DNA from: Nitrospira sp.
Lineage (GTDB): Bacteria; Nitrospirota; Nitrospiria; Nitrospirales; Nitrospiraceae
Direction: 5' to 3'
Length of the DNA: 64,000 nt
Assembly (NCBI GenBank): GCA_016873495.1
Contig: VGXC01000004.1
Location: 1-64,000, forward strand
This document shows positions 2,953-40,683 of the stretch, piece after piece. Below the pieces are notes generated by a model that was not told where the DNA came from, made no database searches, and worked only from the letters and a program-made list of their open reading frames with translations. The position numbers were made by a program, and so were the translations under genes. Positions within the stretch are counted from its first letter, which is position 1; each line of letters begins with the position of its first letter.

Positions 2953-3603
2953 GTGGCGCTGCTGAGCCCCCGACCCTCTCGGCGCCGCGGCGGTCGAGCC
3001 GATCGGCACCGGGCGGCTGTGCGGCGTCTGAGCCAAGCCGACCCGGGCCTCGGCCGGATCATCGCCCGCATCGGCCCCTGTACGCTCAGCCCGCGCCGCG
3101 CCTACTTCGCGACGCTCTGCGACTCCATCATCTCCCAGCAGCTCTCCACCCGCGTCGCCGAGGTCATCTTCGCGCGGTTCACCGCGCTCTATCCGAAGCA
3201 GCGTCCGACGCCTGTGGCCGTGGCGAAGACGCCACTCTCGAATCTCCGAGCCATCGGGCTGTCCCGCCAGAAGGCGGCCTACCTCAAAGACCTCGCCGAA
3301 AGTTTTCAGGATGGGCGTGTGCAACCAGGCCGCCTGGTGCGCCAATCGAACGAAGAGATCATCGGCGCGCTCGTGTCGGTCCATGGCATCGGACGCTGGA
3401 CGGCCGAGATGTTTTTGATATTTTCGTTGAATCGGCTGGACGTGCTGCCCGTGGACGACCTGGGTATTAGAAAGGCGATTCAGCGTTGGTACGGCTTCAA
3501 GACCTTGCCGGCCGCAAGAACAATTCGAAAAATCGGCCGCCCTTGGCACCCGTACGAGACCGTCGCCTCCTGGTATCTTTGGCGAAGCCTGCGGCTGGAT
3601 TGA
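2953..3603 (+). CDS. DNA-3-methyladenine glycosylase (AlkA-type, HhH-GPD)
   Basis: A 216-residue base-excision-repair glycosylase. The helix-hairpin-helix segment VHGIGRWTAEMFLIF is followed by LPVDDLGI, which carries the catalytic aspartate position of the AlkA-like HhH-GPD superfamily. An earlier segment, CDSIISQQLST, matches the N-terminal conserved helix. There is no Cys cluster, so it is not an endonuclease III. It would remove alkylated purines from DNA. The start is uncertain: GTG at 2953 is used, and GTG at 3019 is a shorter option, neither with a good ribosome site. It ends nine bases from the convergent dedA stop. Confidence 0.85.
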   Translation: MALLSPRPSRRRGGRADRHRAAVRRLSQADPGLGRIIARIGPCTLSPRRAYFATLCDSIISQQLSTRVAEVIFARFTALYPKQRPTPVAVAKTPLSNLRAIGLSRQKAAYLKDLAESFQDGRVQPGRLVRQSNEEIIGALVSVHGIGRWTAEMFLIFSLNRLDVLPVDDLGIRKAIQRWYGFKTLPAARTIRKIGRPWHPYETVASWYLWRSLRLD

Positions 3604-3612
3604 CGGGCCAGG

Positions 3613-4251
3613 TCACGAGCCTGCGGAGGTAGGCTTGGCGGTCAGGCGCATCACCAGGACGTAGAGGACGCACAACAAGAGCGCAAACCCTCCGACCATT
3701 CGCGATTTTTGTTGAAGCACCCAGACGAGCTGCGAGGGATTCTGCACCAAGTCCGGCTGGCTCCCCAGCAGGTCGCCGCCGAACCAGGCCAGAACCCAGC
3801 ACCAGAGCCCGGCGCCGACAATCGTCATGGCACTGTAGAGGCCGAACGGCATGCGGACCAGGCCGGCCGGAATGCCGATGAGGTGTCGGACGACCGGGAC
3901 AAGACGGGCAAAGAAGACCCCGCCAGCTTCATAGCGTGCGAGCCAACGCTCCGCCCGAAGCAGCTTGTCTTCCGGGCAGAACAAGTACTTCCCATAGCGA
4001 ATCAGCAGCGGCCGACCCAGCCATCGGGCCACCCAGTACGTGGCCGCGGCGCCGAGGTAACTGCCCAGGGTCCCGGCGAGCACGACGCCGGCAAAACTGT
4101 AGCGGCCTTGTGTGGCCCAATAGGCGGCAGGCGGGATCACCACTTCGCTAGGAATGGGGAAGATCGAACTCTCCATGGCCATCAGTAGAATGATGCCCGG
4201 ATAGCCCCAGTCATGGACCCATTGAAACCAGATACCTACCCACTGCGACAT
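3613..4251 (-). CDS. DedA family membrane protein (VTT domain)
   Basis: A 212-residue integral membrane protein of the DedA/SNARE-associated family. The frame is open upstream to 4554, but the ATG at 4251 (MSQWVGIWFQWV) gives the usual family length and start. Conserved DedA features: ESSIFPIPSEVVIPPAAY, with its acidic residue and proline pair in the first re-entrant region; FFARLVPVVRHLIGIPAGLVRM, with the essential arginines; and several hydrophobic helices. The family is implicated in lipid (undecaprenyl phosphate/phosphatidylglycerol) scrambling and membrane homeostasis. It is convergent with the glycosylase gene. The exact substrate is unknown. Confidence 0.88.
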   Translation of the reverse strand: MSQWVGIWFQWVHDWGYPGIILLMAMESSIFPIPSEVVIPPAAYWATQGRYSFAGVVLAGTLGSYLGAAATYWVARWLGRPLLIRYGKYLFCPEDKLLRAERWLARYEAGGVFFARLVPVVRHLIGIPAGLVRMPFGLYSAMTIVGAGLWCWVLAWFGGDLLGSQPDLVQNPSQLVWVLQQKSRMVGGFALLLCVLYVLVMRLTAKPTSAGS

Positions 4252-38319: not shown

Positions 38320-38865
38320 CACCTCGCTTGGCGCCGATAAGCTCACGACGGCTGATGATGGCAGAAGAAGAGTCGCACGGGCCCTGTCGCTGAGCCCTAA
38401 GAATCTACAATCGGCTGACGAACGGTGGGATTTTCTCACCCGCCCGCCACGAGTGCGCCGAGACGCGCGCCTTTCCCGTGGCGCGGCCGGTCTCGACCAA
38501 TCGCCAAGAAAGAGTACGAGGGCATAAGGCTGCTCGCTCTCCGCCTCCCGCCTGGCACCCCTTCCACGCCGTTTGAGCCGGAATGACCTTCCGGTATTCC
38601 CGCCGCCATGGTCTTCGACCATGTGGCGTTGGTCAGTACCGGCTTTCCGTCCTCAAACGGCGGGCGGGGCCCCGCCGCTCCCGGCGAGGTCGCTCGCCTC
38701 CGCATGCCCTCTTTTTAAAACTGGAAAGGGGATGGCGTCGCTGGTAGACCCCATCCCCTTTCAACCGCTTCCCTAAATTATCTGTCGCGTAATGGATTTG
38801 TCCCACGCGAGCGGTAGCTCGGTCTACTGATTAATGAGCCATATCCGTACCAGCCGAGAAGAGAT
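38320..38865. other. Non-coding repeat-rich stretch after the PIN toxin
   Basis: About 550 bases without a credible gene. It carries CGGCTGACGAACGG at 38412-38425 (also at 37319), a CCCTTCCAC word shared with the region before copy 1, and a perfect 12-bp hairpin GAAAGGGGATGG/CCATCCCCTTTC at 38724-38762. It looks like a diverged copy of the sequence on the other side of the toxin-antitoxin pair. Confidence 0.5.
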
Positions 38866-38908: not shown

Positions 38909-39149
38909 ACTCGGTTTCTCTTTTCTTCGGCAAAGGCTCGATGTGGTTAAGAGAACGTGGTCAGCCCCCTACAAGTGGAGAGCGGACCCAGGAATTCACC
39001 CTCTCGCGGCTAAAACGGATCTATGCCGGTCTGTATAGCACGCCGATCCCGTGCTGTGGAGAAGGTTGACAAGTGATGGAATACGCGCAAGAATCACACG
39101 CCAATGTGCAGTCCGTCTGTGCGTACTATGTCGGTCAGTATACTCAATA
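38909..39149. other. Non-coding stretch left of the gene cassette
   Basis: About 240 bases without a gene. A TTGACA at 39066-39071 with AAGAAT 17 bases later is a weak promoter candidate reading into the cassette. No integrase and no attC-type hairpin is seen, so this side is either an attI-like or a secondary integration site. Confidence 0.45.
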
Positions 39150-39150
39150 G

Positions 39151-39940
39151 TTGGGCGGCATGGGGACGACGCGGGAATTGCGGAGAATCATGAGACTGTT
39201 GGTAGCGCTGTTGCTTACGCTGCCTCTTGTATCTCTCTCTGCTCAGGTAGAGAGTGAGGATGAGAGTTTCAAGAATGAGGTGCGCGCACGCATCGCTAGG
39301 GAGAAGCTTGAGCGGTTGAAGGGCTGGAAGCGAATAGTGTTTCTTTGTTCGCCTACTGAAATGACGAACTCCAAGGAGAAGTTTGATCGAATCTGTGATC
39401 GTATAAACACGAATGCAAAGTTACTGGCTGCCACCGCGAACGCCGACGTTGTCGTAGTGAACGACGGCGAAAACCTTGGCTTCCTCAGTAGTTACCGAGG
39501 GATGTTGCGATTGGAAGTAGACCTATCATCCACCGGCTGTGACGGAAGCGCATGTGCTGTCCATGCCACAGTATCGGCGAGCTTCCCTTACGACAAGGCC
39601 ATCGACCAAGCAGCTGGAAGCTATCCCGTTAACGAAGAAAACCGACGCGGACCGAGCGATTCACCAGCCTCTGTCCCTCGGCCCATACTGGCGTTAATGT
39701 GGGGACCTCGCCAGCTCATTGCTTCCGGCTATCCGAGCGAGGAACTGGGGTCTGGCGTCGTCAATGGCGTCGACTCCCTCCTTAAGGAGTTCTTCACCGA
39801 CTATCTGAACGCCAACCGACAATAGACTTTGGGAACTGATCCGTGCCTGTTCGAATCTGGCGAAGCCGCCCAACCACGGGCTCCAGGCGACCCGCGACAG
39901 CGGCGCTGCATTTGCTGCCGCGGGCGCCTGAGCGCGGACG
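39151..39940 (+). mobile_element. Integron-type gene cassette
   Basis: The left boundary is GTTGGGC (39150-39156), matching the G/TTRRRY crossover core. The right boundary is the core-like GTTAGCC (39940-39946) ending an attC-like palindrome. The attC begins with GCCCAAC (39868-39874), the exact complement of the left GTTGGGC, as required if both came from one circular cassette. One ORF fills the interior, in the cassette-typical orientation. No integrase gene is in the window. Confidence 0.72.
39190..39825 (+). CDS. Cassette-borne secreted protein of unknown function
   Basis: A 211-residue exported protein: signal peptide about 1-20 (MRLLVALLLTLPLVSLSA), then a charged helical segment (ESFKNEVRARIAREKLERLKGWKRI) and a mixed domain with VVVVNDGENLGFLSSYRG and a Cys pair (TGCDGSAC). 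I do not recognise the family. Base composition is visibly lower in GC than neighbouring core genes, in keeping with transfer. The ATG at 39190 has CGGAGAA upstream. It is the only ORF of the integron-like cassette and starts 39 bases after the cassette boundary, as is common. Confidence 0.7.
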   Translation: MRLLVALLLTLPLVSLSAQVESEDESFKNEVRARIAREKLERLKGWKRIVFLCSPTEMTNSKEKFDRICDRINTNAKLLAATANADVVVVNDGENLGFLSSYRGMLRLEVDLSSTGCDGSACAVHATVSASFPYDKAIDQAAGSYPVNEENRRGPSDSPASVPRPILALMWGPRQLIASGYPSEELGSGVVNGVDSLLKEFFTDYLNANRQ

Positions 39941-39946
39941 TTAGCC
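39868..39946 (+). repeat. attC recombination site
   Basis: Starts GCCCAAC and ends GTTAGCC with imperfect inverted arms between: CAGGCGACCCGCGACAGC on the left versus GCTGCCGCGGGCGCCTG on the right. The left arm has extra unpaired bases (notably A at 39890), the asymmetry that gives attC strand selectivity. The loop is about 12 bases. Length 79 bp, within the normal range. Confidence 0.72.
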
Positions 39947-40363: not shown

Positions 40364-40364
40364 G

Positions 40365-40552
40365 CAGGATGTTGAAAAAGTCCGCCAGCTTTGTTCTCGG
40401 TCGCTCGACCCCCTCGACGTACGGTAAGGCGAGGGCAAAGTAACTATCCGCTCGCAGATGATTGAAGCGAGCGGCTCAAGCGAAGCTTGGTATGTACCGC
40501 CTCGCCTCCTCGCTTGCTGCGGCCTCGCTGGACGGTCTTTTTGATCATCCTG
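40365..40552. repeat. MITE-like element with terminal inverted repeats
   Basis: CAGGATGTTGAAAAAGTCCGCCAGC at the left and GCTGGACGGTCTTTTTGATCATCCTG at the right are imperfect inverted repeats (188 bp overall). Inner inverted segments (ACGTACGGTAAGGCGAGG and its near-complement GTACCGCCTCGCC) extend the cruciform. No ORF. It is of the same family as the shorter element at 34234-34351. Confidence 0.7.
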
Positions 40553-40683
40553 TGGGGCATCCGAGACGGCGAGAGTCGCCCGATTTGCATAGCACCAAAT
40601 TATTTTTGTTAGGGCCAGCCATCCCTCCAGGGGTCTGAGGCGAGCGCCATAAGCGGTTGCGCTGACGCGGGCCTGAGAGCCCC

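Follow-up and report, generated by a model that had tools for sequence, protein, structure and literature searches.

Related integrons and the architecture of the locus

Integrons without an integrase are already a known kind of element, and integrase loss has been described elsewhere. In the inactivated integrons of Xanthomonas, intI is lost or broken while the cassettes stay and become stable (PMC12444791), and the loss of a costly integrase is an established explanation (PMC3510236). The chromosomal integrons of Treponema provide a second point of comparison; they are of the 'inverted' integrase type, in which intI is read towards attI and has the same direction as the cassettes (PMC3607928). 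A third is the CALIN, in which attC sites occur without a nearby intI. By default, IntegronFinder 2 calls a CALIN only from at least two attC sites and does not look for attI outside class 1 integrons (PMC9024848), beyond which attI sites are poorly described (PMC9024848). The IntegronFinder 2.0 count for the phylum is only two CALIN, both in Ca. Nitrospira inopinata (PMC9024848), which bears out the remark in the first-pass annotation that integrons are little discussed in this lineage.

The locus described here lies in a stretch of 64,000 nucleotides from a Nitrospira sp. draft genome, referred to in its entirety as the window, and resembles each of these systems in part. As in Treponema, intI is transcribed towards attI and in cassette direction in the relatives of the locus; unlike the Treponema integrons, the locus itself has no intI, and its attI type is found almost only in one family. 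It shares the missing integrase and retained cassette with Xanthomonas, but there a single ancestral platform lies beside ilvD, whereas here attI sites are dispersed, up to several in a genome, and often carry a single cassette. The absence of intI near an attC is also the mark of a CALIN, an assignment offered in the first-pass annotation; however, the window holds one attC, below the default of two, together with an attI site and promoter, and the assignment does not apply. We consider it very probable that the locus is a relict chromosomal integron, made up of an attI site and its promoter, a single captured cassette and the attC of that cassette, from which intI has been deleted. Its features are as follows.

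38982-39013, + strand: probable last ~10 codons of the lost intI, ending in TAA at 39011-39013 (alignment to intI-bearing loci; weak similarity, low certainty)
39003-39156, + strand: attI recombination site, from homology to family copies, position after intI in relatives, and the core TCAATAG|TT
39022-39037, + strand: attI direct repeat 1, TATGCCGGTCTGTATA, a candidate integrase-binding site
39066-39094, + strand: candidate cassette promoter Pc, TTGACA (39066-39071), 17 nt, AAGAAT (39089-39094), between the direct repeats
39127-39142, + strand: attI direct repeat 2, TATGTCGGTCAGTATA
39150-39156, + strand: left core G|TTGGGC, crossover between 39150 and 39151
39151-39940, + strand: gene cassette of 790 bp in integrated form, running from the attI core to the attC R' core
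39190-39825, + strand: cassette gene P0001 (open reading frame), 211-residue protein with a signal-peptide-like N-terminus
39868-39946, + strand: attC, with R'' at 39868-39874 (GCCCAAC) and R' at 39940-39946 (GTTAGCC), from fold, shuffles and covariance model
39883/39884 (C) and 39890 (A), + strand: extrahelical bases of attC, G and T on the bottom strand

The window also contains two dispersed repeats (38534-38715 and 40364-40556), both short, non-coding and present in many copies in the family, and an Rfam scan of the window gave nothing at the gathering threshold.

The cassette and its attC site

The cassette had first been delimited by GTTGGGC at 39150-39156 and by a palindrome at 39868-39946 that begins with GCCCAAC (39868-39874) and ends with GTTAGCC (39940-39946), and these coordinates are correct. 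The complementarity proposed for the two ends is exact but had been taken as too short: it extends over 10 bp without a mismatch, 39150-39159 against 39865-39874 (GTTGGGCGGC / GCCGCCCAAC), and the left and right ends rejoin into a complementary attC core. Within the palindrome, the R''/R' cores, L''/L' arms, spacers and extrahelical bases of an attC are all present, and the unpaired bases already noticed in one arm are a T and a G bulging from the folded bottom strand.

For an independent score, of the kind that the first-pass annotation had asked for, a covariance model was trained on 37 attC sites from relatives, leaving out that of the window. Training sites were located in two ways: as the complement of the left core of the first cassette, downstream of attI, and, within arrays that follow intI, as hairpins. 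The central loop varies, so the model was built on the two arms only. Covariation in the training structure is strong (0.370 against 0.135 in shuffles). Against the whole model the window site scores 40.4 bits, with E = 4.6e-6 in 64 kb (a rough value, the calibration having been short), while the second-best match in the window reaches 17.8 bits; the two extrahelical bases occupy the same model columns as those of the training set. When the downstream 1 kb was shuffled by dinucleotides 1000 times, the matching R'' box never came with an equally good hairpin, and 1 of 100 shuffled windows contained any comparable site. The segment 39868-39946 is thus a genuine attC, the only one that the model finds in the window, and the cassette identity suggested by the first-pass annotation stands.

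The cassette carries one open reading frame reading towards attC, and the lower GC content ascribed to its gene is evident (open reading frame 54%, cassette 56%, window 62%). That the gene might be fixed core content had been named as a ground for rejecting the cassette; it is absent from 60 relatives, so it is not fixed core content but varies between relatives. P0001 has no family match in Pfam, NCBIfam or PHROGs, and no relatives among genome contigs, viral contigs, plasmids and 396 genomes of the phylum, where only weak chance matches were returned. Two PADLOC matches (E 0.004 and 0.049) were too weak for use, and an AlphaFold2 model built without an alignment was unusable (pLDDT 42.8). 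Judging by its N-terminus, the protein may be exported to the periplasm or beyond.

The attI site and the missing integrase gene

What lies left of position 39150 had escaped the first-pass annotation. The 150 bp preceding the cassette have 73-88% identical counterparts in other genomes of the family, with homology ending at the cassette junction. In two relatives (loci L062 and L064) the homologous element immediately follows intI at its 3' end, and the first cassettes there start at the same TCAATAG|TT, the crossover core that is conserved among the copies; in L062 the left core of the first cassette complements its attC over 12 bp. By this homology and position, therefore, 39003-39156 is an attI site. 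A scan with an IntI alignment also turned up intact integrons of other types (L121, L122, L127, L141); their attI sites, different in sequence, likewise stand just after intI. The attI contains two 16-bp direct repeats, which could be sites of integrase binding; they are 105 bp apart in the window, an offset shared by 19 of the 32 attI copies that keep both. A sigma-70-like promoter in the Pc arrangement is conserved in 50 of 71 attI copies, compared with 1.8% of random stretches, and this sequence evidence suggests that it probably transcribes the 211-residue gene.

One relative shows a more complicated arrangement. On the minus strand of G135:C126, at locus L229, the stretch from the attI copy near 4000-4049 to that near 3342-3384 reads attI, cassette, attC, a 25-bp delta-attI (TTATGCCGGTCAGTATACTCAATAG) and the next cassette, the second attI repeat having served as recombination core and left the delta-attI behind. 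Delta-attI cassettes of this kind have been reported for mobile integrons (PMC12901181). The window attI type itself was not found on plasmids.

The platform is incomplete, as no intI lies next to the attI. Searching the window by tblastn with six IntI proteins returned noise only, in agreement with the earlier observation that no integrase is nearby. Similarity to the intact intI-attI regions extends 169 nt upstream of the core and ends there, which takes in about ten codons of the 3' end of intI. This remnant is so short, and its similarity so weak, that a deletion of intI in place, as opposed to the arrival of a block that already lacked it, is an inference. Nor does the sister genome G002, checked as a possible empty site, fix the ancestral state, since its corresponding interval is occupied by unrelated sequence in which the model finds no attC.

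A search of the rest of the genome, as the first-pass annotation had proposed, yielded six attC sites and fragments of intI but no full intI, which could be missing from the assembly because this is a draft of 89 contigs. One fragment (L001; 91 residues, C31:3-275, minus strand) directly follows rsmE and runs off the contig end; its N-terminus is missing and a glutamine replaces the HxxR arginine. The other comprises about 54 residues near C3:11.4 kb. Two more attI copies of the window type lie on contigs C3 and C7. Besides the attC of the window, the model places two on C35, one near each of the C3 and C7 attI copies, and one behind the C3:11.4 kb fragment. Contig C35 (L247, 1-2900) starts inside a second attI type, followed by a short cassette array with attC at 581-649 and 2626-2685; between two of its cassettes, an attI-like core, GCCTAATCAATAGTTAGCC, stands in place of attC. 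From these attI copies, attC sites and intI fragments, we count at least five integron remnants in the genome, with intI present only as broken fragments, and the cassette, described at first as lone, has at least four counterparts.

The attI type of the window is present in 66 of 175 Nitrospiraceae genomes, the family accounting for 36 of the 37 genomes that match it in a sample of the phylum, and intI above a curated cut-off is present in 18 of the 175. Beside the 72 attI copies with a recognisable core, intI was undetected at 53, truncated at 11, at least 700 bp long at four and obscured by a contig edge at four, in a survey that was seeded with the window's attI type and so leaves intact integrons with other attI sequences uncounted. 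Of the four long genes, three are broken or partial, with stops or missing parts (G025, G064, G154). The fourth (L058, G015 C1, between 5425 and 4045) is the only open intI beside this attI type, and there the attI is split by an insert of about 1.4 kb; no assessable copy among the 72 combines an intact intI with an unbroken attI. Homology upstream of the core ranges from 37 to 900 nt among copies, which fits many independent losses of intI. The same contig of G015 also carries an orphan attI with one cassette (L027, 6720-7740), which encodes a putative TIR-like protein, possibly anti-phage cargo, and has an attC-like end.

Origin of the locus and implications

Other explanations for this arrangement have to be weighed. 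The region is GC-rich and the hairpin strong, as might be expected of a chance palindrome or a terminator, but nothing terminator-like turned up in the region, and the shuffles and the independent covariance score refute this reading, to which we attach practically no probability. Insertion at a secondary site outside attI by an integrase acting in trans, one of the options in the first-pass annotation, would agree with the lack of an integrase nearby and with a right core, GTTAGCC, that deviates from GTTRRRY. Yet GTTAGCC also ends other attI-borne cassettes of the family (L027, L029), and on the left lies a complete attI homologue whose repeats, promoter and core are conserved; homology to attI sites adjacent to intI refutes a secondary site, which makes this option exceedingly improbable. 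It is very unlikely, too, that the left element has nothing to do with integrons and is a mobile promoter or dispersed repeat standing beside cassettes by chance. The element is indeed multi-copy, with up to five matches per genome and mostly without intI. However, wherever intI survives the element is directly behind it, cassette left cores start exactly at TCAATAG|TT, a downstream attC complements the left core at 19 of 72 attI loci against 0-7 in the null, and all 30 of the best attC matches lie on the attI strand.

More credible, if still unlikely, is the possibility that the platform remains alive, with IntI from another integron or a visitor excising or inserting cassettes in trans. Neither the attI core nor the attC structure is damaged, those 18 genomes of the family have full intI genes, and recombination at an attI repeat is seen in L229. 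Against this, the genome itself has no full intI, and the one intact intI beside this attI type is that of another genome, G015, where the insert interrupts attI. A related idea, that orphan attI sites, each with a promoter, are kept as dispersed landing pads, allowing capture and expression at many loci with an integrase in trans rather than in one long array, seems to us improbable.

For the relict integron that we favour, we suggest the following scenario. The exact anatomy of the junctions points to an integrase that brought in the cassette as a circle, recombining attI with attC at G|TT. The integrase gene, transcribed towards attI in this group, would then have been deleted from the locus, after which the cassette may have been frozen in first position, its gene probably transcribed from the conserved attI promoter. 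The same decay appears to have been repeated across the Nitrospiraceae.

To our knowledge, and as far as the open-licence literature extends, the attI type, its several dispersed copies per genome and the predominance of copies without intI are new. An attI found throughout the family, with fixed repeat spacing, promoter and core, provides a searchable signature for integrons that lack intI and have a single attC, a class that goes unreported under standard software defaults. With it, integron traffic in nitrite-oxidising relatives proves far more widespread than published counts indicate, and the many independent losses of intI could serve as a natural test of the idea that an active integrase is costly (PMC3510236).
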